Assembly: GCF_004803695.1 (NCBI RefSeq)
Contig: NZ_CP039393.1
Location: 2,852,001-2,916,000, forward strand
Direction of reading: 5' to 3'
DNA length: 64,000 nucleotides
Source of the DNA: Muribaculum gordoncarteri
GTDB taxonomy: Bacteria > Bacteroidota > Bacteroidia > Bacteroidales > Muribaculaceae
Both the position numbers and the translations under genes were made by a program. Positions within the stretch are counted from its first letter, which is position 1; the number at the start of each line of letters is the position of its first letter. The notes under the pieces were generated by a model, which did no database searches, was not told where the DNA came from, and worked only from the letters and a program-made list of their open reading frames with translations. Below are positions 3,943-13,647 of this stretch, piece by piece.

Positions 3943-3950
3943 TATCTTTG
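3943..3950 (+). promoter_or_regulatory. Bacteroidetes -7 box of the Na/Pi cotransporter gene
   Basis: TATCTTTG matches the TAnnTTTG consensus and lies about 49 bases before the ATG at 3999. It overlaps the TTG at 3948, which argues against that codon as the translation start. Confidence 0.7.
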
Positions 3951-3998
3951 TCGTTGGAAACAAAGAAGATTCTCATCAACGACTTCGATGCCTCAAGT

Positions 3999-5819
3999 AT
4001 GAACTATACATTATTAGACTTTTTAGCTCTCCTCGGTTCCGTCGGTTTGTTCCTCTACGGAATGAAAGTGATGAGCGAAGGCCTCCAGAAGGCTGCGGGC
4101 GACCGCTTGCGTAACATCCTTTCGGCAATGACCCGCAACAGATTCACAGGTACATTGACCGGTTTTGCCATCACCGCCCTGATTCAGAGCTCGTCGGCCT
4201 CCACCGTAATGGTAGTCAGCTTCGTAAATGCAGGCTTGATGACGCTGGCCCAATCAATGGCGGTCATCTTCGGAGCAAATGTGGGTACGACATTCACGGC
4301 ATGGATCATAGCCCTGTTCGGATTCAAAGTCGACACATCGCTCTTCATCCTCCCGCTCATAGCATGTTCCGTCCCGTTGCTCTTCTCAAAGAAAAGCCGC
4401 ACCAAGTCCATAGGCGAGTTCCTGATAGGATTCTCATTCCTCTTCATGGGTTTGGACATGATAAGCGACTATGTCCCCGACCTTCAGAGCAATCCCGAAA
4501 TGTTTGCCTTCCTCGAGCGTTACGCATCGATGGGCTTCACTTCAGTGCTGCTGTTCCTGCTTGTGGGTATAATAGTCACGGCAGTCATCCAGTCGTCGGC
4601 GGCGACATTCGCCATAGTACTTATAATGTGTACCAAGGGATGGATATCATTTGACCTTGCCTGTGCCGTAGTGCTCGGCAGCAACATAGGAACCACCATA
4701 ACGCCGCTGCTCGCGTCAATGAGCGGAAACGTTGCGGCAAAACGAACGGCGATGGGACACCTGCTGTTCAACGCCCTCGGCATAATATGGACTTTGTGTG
4801 TATTCTATCCGTTTGTCAACCTCAACGTGTGGATAACCGAAGCCCTCGGACAAGGCAATCCGGAAACTCTGTTTACCTACGTGAATACTCTCGAAGATAC
4901 ACAGCCCGACATATACAACCAACTCTTTGCCGGCAGTCTTCCGGCAGGACATGAAGTGCTGGCCAAGATCGCCATGATGCAGTTCAGCGTGTCATTCGGC
5001 CTCTCAATGTTCCACACCGTGTTCAATCTCATCAACCTTTCGATAATGATATGGCTCACGGGAATGTATGTGAAGATTGTCGAGAAGCTAATCCCCGCAA
5101 AGCACAAGGAGGACGAAGAGTTCCAGCTCAAATTCATATCGGCCGGCTTGCTCAGTGCTTCAGAACTCAACATAGCCCAGGCCGAGAAGGAGATGACCGT
5201 ATATGCCCAACGCGTACAGCGCATGATCGACATGGCGGAAAACCTCGTACACTCCAAGGAGAAGAGCGAGGAGTTCTCGCAACTGTTCTCGCGGCTTGAG
5301 AAATATGAGGAGATTTCCGACCGCATGGAAATCGAAATCGCCAACTACCTCAACCGATGCGCCGAGGGGCGACTCTCCAATGAAGGTAAACTCCACATCG
5401 CCGCGATGCTCAACATCGTCAGCGAAATCGAGAGCATAGCCGACTGCTGCTTCGGATGCGCCAAGATACTCATACGCAAGCAGGAGAGCGGTGTCGACTT
5501 CACCGAATTGATATACAAGAACATCGACACGATGTTTGGCTACCTGAAAGAGGCTATGACCGACATGATAGAGCTGCTCAGCGATGTAGAAAAAGCAAGG
5601 GAAGTGGCCATCATACGCTCCTACAACAAAGAGCGTGAGATCAACAACCTGCGCAATCAGCTGCGCACCAACAATGTCGAGAACATCAACAACAAGGTGT
5701 ACGAGTATCAGTCGGGCATATACTACATGGACATTATCAACGACCTCGAAAAGATGGGCGACTATATAATAAATGTAGTAGACACGATTCGCGACCATTT
5801 TCGCAAGCATGTTGCTTAA
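3999..5819 (+). CDS. Na/Pi cotransporter family protein with C-terminal PhoU-like domain
   Basis: This is a 606-residue inner-membrane protein. The N-terminal half (about 1-380) has many hydrophobic helices and the two inverted repeats typical of the NptA/PNaS family, each with a QSSSA-type motif (IQSSSASTVMVVSF and IQSSAATFAIVLIM). The C-terminal part (about 400-600) is a soluble, helical PhoU-like domain with two repeats (MIDMAENLVHSKEKSEEF and NDLEKMGDYIINVVDTI). It probably imports phosphate with sodium, or exports or regulates it. The ATG at 3999 is chosen because upstream in-frame TTG codons overlap the promoter. It is transcribed toward a response regulator gene, but a palindrome and a new promoter lie between them. 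Confidence 0.92.
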   Translation: MNYTLLDFLALLGSVGLFLYGMKVMSEGLQKAAGDRLRNILSAMTRNRFTGTLTGFAITALIQSSSASTVMVVSFVNAGLMTLAQSMAVIFGANVGTTFTAWIIALFGFKVDTSLFILPLIACSVPLLFSKKSRTKSIGEFLIGFSFLFMGLDMISDYVPDLQSNPEMFAFLERYASMGFTSVLLFLLVGIIVTAVIQSSAATFAIVLIMCTKGWISFDLACAVVLGSNIGTTITPLLASMSGNVAAKRTAMGHLLFNALGIIWTLCVFYPFVNLNVWITEALGQGNPETLFTYVNTLEDTQPDIYNQLFAGSLPAGHEVLAKIAMMQFSVSFGLSMFHTVFNLINLSIMIWLTGMYVKIVEKLIPAKHKEDEEFQLKFISAGLLSASELNIAQAEKEMTVYAQRVQRMIDMAENLVHSKEKSEEFSQLFSRLEKYEEISDRMEIEIANYLNRCAEGRLSNEGKLHIAAMLNIVSEIESIADCCFGCAKILIRKQESGVDFTELIYKNIDTMFGYLKEAMTDMIELLSDVEKAREVAIIRSYNKEREINNLRNQLRTNNVENINNKVYEYQSGIYYMDIINDLEKMGDYIINVVDTIRDHFRKHVA

Positions 5820-5940: not shown

Positions 5941-5948
5941 TATCTTTG
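5941..5948 (+). promoter_or_regulatory. -7 box of the response regulator / rnhB unit
   Basis: TATCTTTG, a perfect TAnnTTTG match, lies 34 bases before the ATG at 5982. Confidence 0.65.
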
Positions 5949-5981: not shown

Positions 5982-6709
5982 ATGAAAATGCATCCTATTA
6001 TGAAGCATATAGAATCAACATCCGAGCAACCGTGCCGCATACTCATTGCCGACGATGAGCCGCTGGTGTGTGAACTTATGCAATTCAATCTGGAGAAAGA
6101 GGGATTTGAGGTTGATGTGTTCCGCAATGTCGATGAGGCTTATCAGGCCGATCTCCCCAACTATAATCTGTTTATAATCGATGTGATGATGAACGACATG
6201 ATGGGCATGCATTTTGCGCATCACCTCAAGCAGACAAAGAGCACCACATCGATTCCACTGATATTCTGTACGGCCTGCGATGGCGAAAATGACATCATCA
6301 ACGGCCTTAACTCGGGCGCCGACGACTATATCCTGAAACCCTTCTCGATGAAGGAGATGATAGCCCGTGTTAACGCAGTGCTGCGCCGCCACCGCATGAG
6401 CCCCCCACCCCGCCGGCAAAAGTGCTTACCTGCCGTGACATGAGAATCAACATCGACGACATGACCGTGTACATCGGCGACAAGCTGATTGACCTCACCA
6501 ACAACGAATTCTATCTGCTGACACTCTTTGTCAACAACCGCAACCGCCTTTTCAGCCACAACGAGATCATAGACACGATATGGCCGGGTGAAATGCCGGT
6601 GAGCCGACGCACTATAGACATAAACATAGCCCGACTGCGCAAGAAGCTCGGCAGCTACGCCGAACAGCTGGTCGACCGCCCGGGATTCGGTTACGGATAT
6701 GTTGAGTGA
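5982..6709 (+). pseudogene. OmpR/PhoB-family response regulator, frameshifted in a C6 tract
   Basis: The receiver domain is complete in one frame (about residues 18-137): acidic pair Asp24-Asp25, phospho-acceptor Asp67 (FIIDVMM), Thr in FCTACD, Lys in ILKPFS. The winged-helix domain follows in the -1 frame from about 6398 to 6709 ([35 protein letters not shown]). The frames break at the C6 tract 6401-6406; one extra C would give an uninterrupted 242-residue protein. Without it, translation adds about 15 unrelated residues and stops at 6443, giving a receiver with no DNA-binding domain. No histidine kinase is adjacent. The cause may be a true mutation, slippage-based phase variation, or a base error. 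Confidence 0.85.
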
Positions 6710-6710
6710 A

Positions 6711-7310
6711 ATGCTTCCCACATGCTATATAGCCGGGCGCAACGAAGCCGGCTGCGACGAAGCGGGACGAGGATGCCTTGCGGGATCGGTGTATGCCGCC
6801 GCAGTGATACTCCCCGACGACTTCCACCATCCGCTGCTTAACGACTCAAAACAGCTTACCGAAGCAAGGCGCGAGAAACTGCGCCCCATAATCGAGGCCG
6901 AGGCCGTTGCCTGGGCAGTGGGCATAGTAACTCCTGAAGAGATCGACCACATAAATATACTCAGGGCATCGATACTGGCAATGCATCGCGCCATAGATGC
7001 ATTGAGCATAAAACCCGGTGCAATAATAATCGACGGGAATCGATTCTCGGCCTATGGCGACATCCCTTTTCAAACTTTTGTCAAGGGCGACGGACGCTTT
7101 GGCAACATAGCGGCAGCGTCAATTCTCGCCAAGACCCACCGTGACGAGTACATGAGAAACCTGCATGAGCAATATCCGCAATACGGATGGAATGTTAACA
7201 AGGGCTATCCCACCCGCGCCCACCGCGCAGCAATAGCCGAATACGGTCCCACGCCCTACCACCGCATGACCTTCCGCCTCCTCGACCCCCAGCAGCTCAC
7301 CCTGTTCTAA
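6711..7310 (+). CDS. rnhB: Ribonuclease HII
   Basis: This 199-residue enzyme removes RNA from RNA-DNA hybrids, including single misincorporated ribonucleotides. The signature DEAGRG (Asp16, Glu17) opens the protein, followed by [11 protein letters not shown]. Further acidic residues lie in IIIDGNRF and in THRDEYM. The C-terminus [13 protein letters not shown], ending PQQLTLF, is typical. The ATG at 6711 puts the usual 12 or so residues before the AGCDEAGRG block. An ATG four codons earlier (6699) overlaps the response regulator. The gene follows the regulator almost without a gap, so the two are probably co-transcribed. Confidence 0.95.
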
Positions 7311-11944: not shown

Positions 11945-13647
11945 TTAGGGATATTCAGTTAATGGCTTGATTTATCAAGCTGAAAATGGAGCGTGGTCGC
12001 CCTATGGCGGTGCTGTTTTGATTATGAGGGCAAATTTTCAATTCTCGGCGATAAAATATGACATTTCGGACAAATAGGGATACACTGATTCGCCTCCGAT
12101 GTGCTTCGGAGATGAGATGACAGTATGATTTTTCACGCTCGCTGTTTTTGTAACTGCTTCTCTTTTTCTTCGATGGCGAGTTGTCGGGCGGCAAGTGTTG
12201 CGGCGTTTGCCATGTGGATGCCGAAAAAGAGCAGCAGGGTTTCGCTGCGGGAGTTGCGTGCCGCTATCCGGCCAACGCTGTAGTGTTGTTTCTGATTACC
12301 GAAACTGCCCTCCATGGCGGTAGAGCGCAGTGTCCCGATTATTCGTCGGGCTGTGCTTATGTCAGCATCTTCATCCTTGGGCTTCGGGCCTTTGCGGACA
12401 AAACAGGTCGTCATGCCGTTTTCGGTGCAATACCGCCGGTTGTCGTTGTTGGCATAGATGGTGTCTGCCCCTACCCTGGTCACTTTGATACCGGTCAGTT
12501 CCTGTTGATATTCAATACACTCCTGTAATCTCACGCCCTCGTTGAAGGCTTCGAAGGAATGGTGTTCGATGAATGAAATTCCGTCAATCTGGATGTTGTT
12601 GACCTTGACTCCGAACTCCACTCGCTTGTTCTCCTTGCCTCTGACAATAGGACGGATGTACGGACGGTCTATGCTGACGATACGGTGTTTCACCTCCTTT
12701 TTCTGAGCAAGTGCGCTCTGCTGGCGATACACCTCTTTTAATGCACTGAGACGCTTGCTTTGCTCTGCGGTGAGCGTGATGTCAACGGTGTGTATCTTGC
12801 AGATTCTGTTCCATTGACCTATCTGTTTGGAAAGCAGGCCGAGCAATCGACGGCGGAGTTTGGCGGTTGCCGCCCTGGTGTGCTTGCGATGCTTGGCATA
12901 GGTGAGTCTGTCGCGGTCAATATCACGATACTTGTTGCGTGGCAACCGTTCCTTCAACGCCTTGCAGGTCTTTTTTATAAGTGATTGAATCCACTCGCAG
13001 CATTCCCACAACAGCTTTACATCTGTCGGGAATCGCAGATGGCTCTCGTAACAGGTGGCGTCGGTCAGGCACAGGTTCTTGTCTTTTAACAAACCGCCCC
13101 ACTTGTCATACAGCAATTTCTGTAGTTCTTTGATATCAAGAGCTCCGGCTATACGCTGACGGATAGCACTGACTATCTTGCCGTTCTTTATGGGGTTGGC
13201 CGGATCTATGAGCACCCCGCAGAACATCTGTATGTGTATACTGCCGTTGAGCATCTCGATCAGGCCGTCATCCGACTGTCCGGTATATGGCTTGAGAAAC
13301 ATCAGCGCCACCTCTCCCTCCGGCGGGAACATCGGAGTGTTGCCCTGAGGATGCGTTTTGGGAAAATGCGAACGGATTTTCTCTGCCAGTTCTTTCAATG
13401 GCAATTGCGCATGGATGCGCCCGAGCTCGCTTACGGCAAAACTCTCGCGATATTTTTGCATGAAATCGAACTCGGTAAACGGCAACGTGGCCGTAATCTC
13501 GGATATTTTTCGTAACTTCACGTACAATTATTTTAAGAATTACCCCCGAATAAGCCCGTGATGGGTCCATCGGGGGTTCATTGTAAAGTTACAAAATATC
13601 TACGACTTTGGCAAACAATTAGTTGGCAATTAACTGAGTATCCCTAA
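11945..13647 (-). mobile_element. IS1182-like insertion sequence, complete, 1.7 kb
   Basis: A single transposase gene lies between imperfect terminal inverted repeats. The outer 19 bases read TTAGGGATAYTCAGTTAAT at both ends, with one mismatch (T left, C right). Each end is flanked by TTAA (11941-11944 and 13648-13651), a palindromic 4-bp target duplication as expected for this family. The open transposase frame and near-identical ends point to a recent, possibly active insertion. It disrupts no visible gene. Confidence 0.85.
12133..13527 (-). CDS. DDE transposase of the IS1182-like element
   Basis: This 464-residue transposase has an N-terminal dimerisation/DNA-binding region (EVALMFLKPYTGQSDDGLIE) and a DDE core. 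The likely catalytic residues are Asp156 (CLTDATCY), Asp355 (RVGADTIYA) and Glu406 (TAMEGSFGNQ), and the Glu block carries the typical following Y. The frame is intact. The start is uncertain: TTG at 13527 or GTG at 13521 are the only early candidates, and the first ATG is 22 codons in. Length and order fit the IS1182 group of the IS5/IS4 superfamily. Exact IS identity needs ISfinder. Confidence 0.88.
   Translation of the reverse strand: MYVKLRKISEITATLPFTEFDFMQKYRESFAVSELGRIHAQLPLKELAEKIRSHFPKTHPQGNTPMFPPEGEVALMFLKPYTGQSDDGLIEMLNGSIHIQMFCGVLIDPANPIKNGKIVSAIRQRIAGALDIKELQKLLYDKWGGLLKDKNLCLTDATCYESHLRFPTDVKLLWECCEWIQSLIKKTCKALKERLPRNKYRDIDRDRLTYAKHRKHTRAATAKLRRRLLGLLSKQIGQWNRICKIHTVDITLTAEQSKRLSALKEVYRQQSALAQKKEVKHRIVSIDRPYIRPIVRGKENKRVEFGVKVNNIQIDGISFIEHHSFEAFNEGVRLQECIEYQQELTGIKVTRVGADTIYANNDNRRYCTENGMTTCFVRKGPKPKDEDADISTARRIIGTLRSTAMEGSFGNQKQHYSVGRIAARNSRSETLLLFFGIHMANAATLAARQLAIEEKEKQLQKQRA

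Follow-up and report, generated by a model that had tools for sequence, protein, structure and literature searches.

The locus raises the question of why the receiver (PF00072) and winged-helix (wHTH, PF00486) domains of one OmpR-type response regulator are encoded in two different reading frames. The break might be a real mutation, a reversible switch, a site of slippage or restart, or a single base misread in the assembly. The window, which is the whole 64-kb stretch of DNA analysed here, was compared with related loci, and all C and G runs of six or more bases in the source genome were assessed.

Structure of the split regulator

The original prediction had placed the receiver and the DNA-binding domain in two frames, with a run of six C at the switch. 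The reading frames, the domain matches and the coding potential all confirmed this (Table 1). The two pieces were searched separately, the first matching PF00072 with 83.7 bits and the second PF00486 with 62.1 bits. Candidate ATG starts of the receiver ORF are at 5982, 5988 and 6000, and its stop is TGA 6441-6443, 17 residues past the LRR motif at the end of the receiver. The product has one residue fewer than the "about 154" predicted for the receiver-only form. Judged from its sequence, the predicted product is the truncated form of a broken regulator. The wHTH frame is open from 6374 to 6709 and otherwise intact, out of frame with the receiver. The 243 codons predicted after the addition of one C follow from the coordinates by arithmetic. 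Key residues were predicted to be intact in both domains, and they are. The receiver active-site residues D, D, D, T, Y and K are all present in the window, and the wHTH keeps what we take to be a typical stretch resembling a recognition helix.

A hexamer coding model was trained on 44 ORFs of the window, each 200 codons or longer, with the regulator excluded. It showed strong coding potential on either side of the break and a change of frame at about 6400. Comparison by eye with L006 (RRKRMSSPAKP) placed the break between RMS and PAK, at or beside the C tract. The 67-nt switch interval holds the only G/C run of at least six bases in the window, for which the arithmetic chance in a random 67-nt interval is about 0.001. 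A scan of the window for same-strand frame changes returned 17, of which 16 resembled gene junctions by eye, the next start codon lying close to the stop before it; the 17th was the regulator break. Receiver and Trans_reg_C together in one protein, the OmpR/PhoB-type arrangement, were found in 34 orthologs; in the window they are spread over two frames.

Table 1. Features of the regulator locus in the window and receiver-only loci in relatives
Feature	Position	Strand	Evidence
Na/Pi cotransporter with PhoU domain, upstream neighbour	3948..5819	+	PF02690 208 bits, PF01895 48 bits
Possible Bacteroidota -7 promoter element TATCTTTG	5941..5948	+	Sequence; putative
Receiver ORF	5982..6443	+	153 residues from ATG 5982; PF00072 over 6039-6371; NF053854 162 bits
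Frame-switch interval	6374..6440	+	wHTH frame opens at 6374; receiver stop at 6441
C6 tract at frame switch	6401..6406	+	Sequence; sole G/C run of ≥6 in the 64-kb window
wHTH frame from GTG 6422	6422..6709	+	PF00486 62.1 bits over 6485-6694; NF053854 98 bits; coding potential
ATGA overlap	6440..6443	+	Receiver ORF stop and ATG in wHTH frame; putative restart
rnhB (ribonuclease HII), downstream neighbour	6699..7310	+	PF01351 130 bits
Receiver-only loci, genus g1			L002, L003, L004, L005, L008
Receiver-only loci, genus g6			L053, L058, L059
Receiver-only locus, genus g13			L080

Genomic context and affiliation

The window lies in a genome of 3.43 Mb (G000) with three contigs and a completeness of 99.99%. 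The Na/Pi cotransporter is found upstream in many orthologous loci as well. The putative promoter element was matched to TAnnTTTG, which we take to be the Bacteroidota -7 promoter motif. On the minus strand, at 12133-13527, the window carries a 464-residue ORF that appeared transposase-like by eye; a search of 12100-13600 against the plasmid collection in near mode gave no match.

The best NCBIfam model for both regulator pieces was NF053854 (PhoB of Bacteroidota), whose cut-off of 270 bits applies to the whole protein, the window pieces being scored apart. Three other members above the cut-off were present in the source genome, with 332.5, 327.9 and 290.8 bits. The two highest-scoring paralogs (L021, L030) adjoin ORFs that were histidine-kinase-like by eye. 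The matches to this PhoB model point to a member of the Bacteroidota, perhaps of the Muribaculaceae. Since no kinase adjoins the window regulator, it is regarded as an orphan PhoB-like regulator of the OmpR type, with three paralogs in the genome fitting PhoB better. It shares its best model with PhoB of Bacteroidota but belongs to an rnhB-linked group whose full-length members mostly fall below the cut-off. Only 4 of the 34 exceeded it (G098, G045, G082 and G023), and 28 scored 198-253 bits, G001 and G008 lying outside the rows listed. Ortholog L054 passed with 298 versus 270 bits. PstB above the cut-off was found in none of 45 genomes. A Pst system was rejected as the missing signal: sub-cut-off PstB matches occurred in five of the 45 genomes, all of genus g6, three of them receiver-only and two full-length, so that PstB does not distinguish the states.

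The rnhB locus in the family

Receiver relatives, paralogs included, were detected in all 14 genomes of the genus, and rnhB in 145 of 149 family genomes. A total of 113 rnhB loci was read. Thirteen of them belong to the 14 of the genus, the window's included and that of G007 left out; the other 100 were among the 135 found elsewhere in the family, taken mainly from the head of the list, with 35 omitted. A receiver was located beside rnhB at 44 of the 113 loci. It was full-length in 34, receiver-only in nine and split in one, the window. This division of rnhB-linked receivers into full-length, receiver-only and split states is new here. Among the titles listed in a literature search, none dealt with this locus, subscription papers being mostly outside its scope. 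A search of a contig collection gave 22 loci, the best 42% identical. The other 69 rnhB loci had no receiver match within the stretch read, an absence that is not firm where contigs were short (L064 has 789 bases). In L055 and L060, two such loci, about 80 nt lie between the end of a cotransporter match and the rnhB match downstream of it.

The wHTH was absent at 5 of the 12 congener loci read. In seven of the nine receiver-only loci, 9-34 nt separate the receiver stop from the start of the rnhB match, and the DNA for the wHTH has therefore disappeared. The other two, L053 and L059, showed no wHTH at E 1e-3 and have rnhB 1.8-2.1 kb downstream. Receiver-only proteins stop 3-9 residues past the LRR motif, the window ORF after 17. 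The three receiver-only loci of genus g6 carry A6 or A7 just past the LRR motif, at the end of the protein; A7 is also present there in the full-length L026.

On a tree of receiver and RNase HII (44 rows), the locus must have changed between the full-length and the receiver-only state three times or more, a count that cannot by itself separate loss from gain. Full-length forms are spread across the tree, and the wHTH-less states are therefore read as probable losses rather than gains. The receiver-only L080 formed a long branch of unsure placement. The window grouped weakly with the five receiver-only congeners (88/73). With the cotransporter added, both the union of these five in one clade (p-AU 0.0385) and that of the window with the seven full-length congeners (p-AU 0.0351) were weakly rejected; these AU tests are borderline, the groups were picked after a tree had been seen, and 6 of the 20 rows lacked the cotransporter.

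Selection and conserved residues

Within the receiver-only clade L002/L003/L004, dN/dS of the receiver was 0.046, 0.039 and 0.061, at a dS of 0.47-2.5 that is partly saturated, and that of rnhB was 0.066, 0.034 and 0.065. The receiver in this clade is thus shown to be under purifying selection similar to that on rnhB. The g6 receiver-only proteins diverge faster, with a dN/dS of 0.105 for L058/L059 and saturation in the remaining two pairs.

The phosphoacceptor Asp, the first acidic Asp and the Lys were retained in all nine receiver-only proteins. Deviations comprised the second acidic residue, which was Asn in two and Ala in one, and the Thr/Ser position, which was Ala in one. The phosphoacceptor of the 34 full-length orthologs was Asp in 19, Glu in 12 (L081, L102, L090, L101, L106, L111, L131, L136, L138, L139, L142 and L150) and Asn in three (L006, L010 and L027). 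The substitutions suggest that the orthologs with Asn or Glu are phosphorylation-independent regulators. Retention of Asp thus stood at 9/9 receiver-only versus 19/34 full-length proteins (Fisher p 0.017, ancestry ignored). A mutual exclusion of phosphoacceptor loss and wHTH loss was rejected; three independent pairs on starred branches gave no significance once ancestry was considered.

Real mutation or sequencing error

The explanation preferred here, to which about an even chance of being correct is assigned, is a recent real contraction that leaves the window gene with a receiver-only protein. Its closest competitor, less probable but to be taken seriously, is an assembly or base-calling error at the C homopolymer, the real gene being one intact full-length regulator. 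The errors that persist in long-read-only assemblies are typically homopolymer indels (PMC8812927), and the three contigs of the source assembly suggest long reads. Also in favour of an error, the switch interval holds the window's sole G/C run of six or more bases. A completeness of 99.99% counts against it.

All 89 exact C6/G6 runs in the genome were assessed for frame. At the 120-nt setting, 39 were coding on both sides; 38 of these kept their frame and the window's run alone switched, which counts against an error. With the other three settings, 35-39 runs kept their frame and the window's was again the sole switch. Among 18 longer G/C runs, three to four had coding sequence on either side; of four coding runs of C7 or longer at the 120-nt setting, three were in frame. 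A G8 run, L233 (G000:C1:246466-246473), showed a frame switch at two of the four settings, a possible second case that would favour error. By eye it lies in a small HTH repressor-like gene in a mobile-element-like region. Widespread homopolymer errors were thus not seen in the census, and a single switch among 39 coding C6 runs indicates that errors are not rampant; one miscall is possible. C7 words numbered 24 in 3.43 Mb of the source assembly, or about 7 per Mb; each of the 13 congeners had more, at about 17-42 per Mb. This scarcity would result from homopolymer shortening, to which composition could be an alternative.

The good conservation of the wHTH is in favour of an error. Its mean identity to 27 orthologs outside the genus was 0.371 in the window and 0.214-0.321 in the seven full-length congeners. 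A domain kept this well fits a one-base misreading of an intact gene, and it implies that the break is either very young or absent, in agreement with the prediction that decay is very recent or not real. The absence of the wHTH from 5 of 12 congeners argues against an error, as it makes a loss credible.

Possible switching and slippage

A reversible slip of the C tract between full-length and receiver-only forms was the mechanism put forward in the original prediction. As an evolved switch it was not supported by the comparison with relatives, and phase variation is considered unlikely. In its favour, both domains are intact on either side of the tract, and there is a precedent in a two-component protein. 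In bvgS of Bordetella pertussis, a one-base change in a six-C run (C6/C7) truncates the protein (PMC1891110). The likeness extends to the six-C run, the one-base change and the truncated product; six C in bvgS is the full-length state and variation was observed, whereas six C in the window is the broken state, seen in one genome per species. The window tract is short, at six bases, and it is not conserved: no G/C run of at least five was present in the linker of 41 of 43 relatives. The exceptions were L111, of another genus, with C6 and an intact frame, and L073 with C5. Conservation of the tract among orthologs, as for a phase-variable contingency gene, was thus not found, a conserved slippery tract was rejected, and a conserved phase switch is not supported. 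Improbable, too, is a combined scenario in which the regulator has been converted repeatedly across the family into a receiver-only modulator, an output-free receiver being of use as a decoy or sink for paralog kinases, and in which the C tract switches reversibly in the cell line of the window and so displays the conversion under way.

Slippage during translation or transcription, or reinitiation at the ATGA overlap, yielding full-length and short products or two separate domains, is very unlikely despite the C run and the overlap, since the two domains lay in two frames in none of the 43 relatives and in one frame in 34 of these, and the segment 6395-6480 folds no better than shuffled sequences (z 0.57); a conserved programmed frameshift with a stimulator fold was rejected on the same grounds.

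Proposed course of events and significance

Under the preferred explanation of a recent real contraction, the DNA-binding half of the rnhB-linked PhoB-like regulator would be dispensable in the family and would have been lost several times; in at least one clade, selection maintains the leftover receiver. A recent net contraction by one base at the C tract of the interdomain linker would have led to the same end state in the window. Translation would stop 17 residues past the LRR motif and give a receiver-only protein, the out-of-frame wHTH having not yet decayed. The contraction is presumed to be present in the living strain. The ATGA overlap could permit separate translation of the wHTH.

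That a receiver-only product could still act, as originally predicted, is consistent with the nine relatives that have such an ORF. Single-domain response regulators are widespread and act by protein contact or as a shuttle or sink (PMC8995066). CheY, Spo0F, DivK and McvR likewise combine a receiver and its phosphoacceptor with no output domain; the difference here is that the receivers occupy an OmpR-type locus, which has no wHTH in several lineages of a single family. The receiver-only form may work through protein contacts, or it may be a phosphate sink into which the kinases of the PhoB-like paralogs discharge. Given that two paralogs in the genome are linked to kinases, a role as sink or decoy is the preferred guess.

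The transition from multi-domain to single-domain response regulators is usually inferred over long distances. Here, within one genus and family, the regulator at a single syntenic locus is full-length in some species, split in another and wHTH-less in others. One can thus ask directly whether selection acts on the receiver by itself, and which kinase that receiver serves. The break in the window may be a genuine stage in an evolutionary trend that repeats itself, and the locus cautions against dismissing its gene as simply a pseudogene or simply an error.
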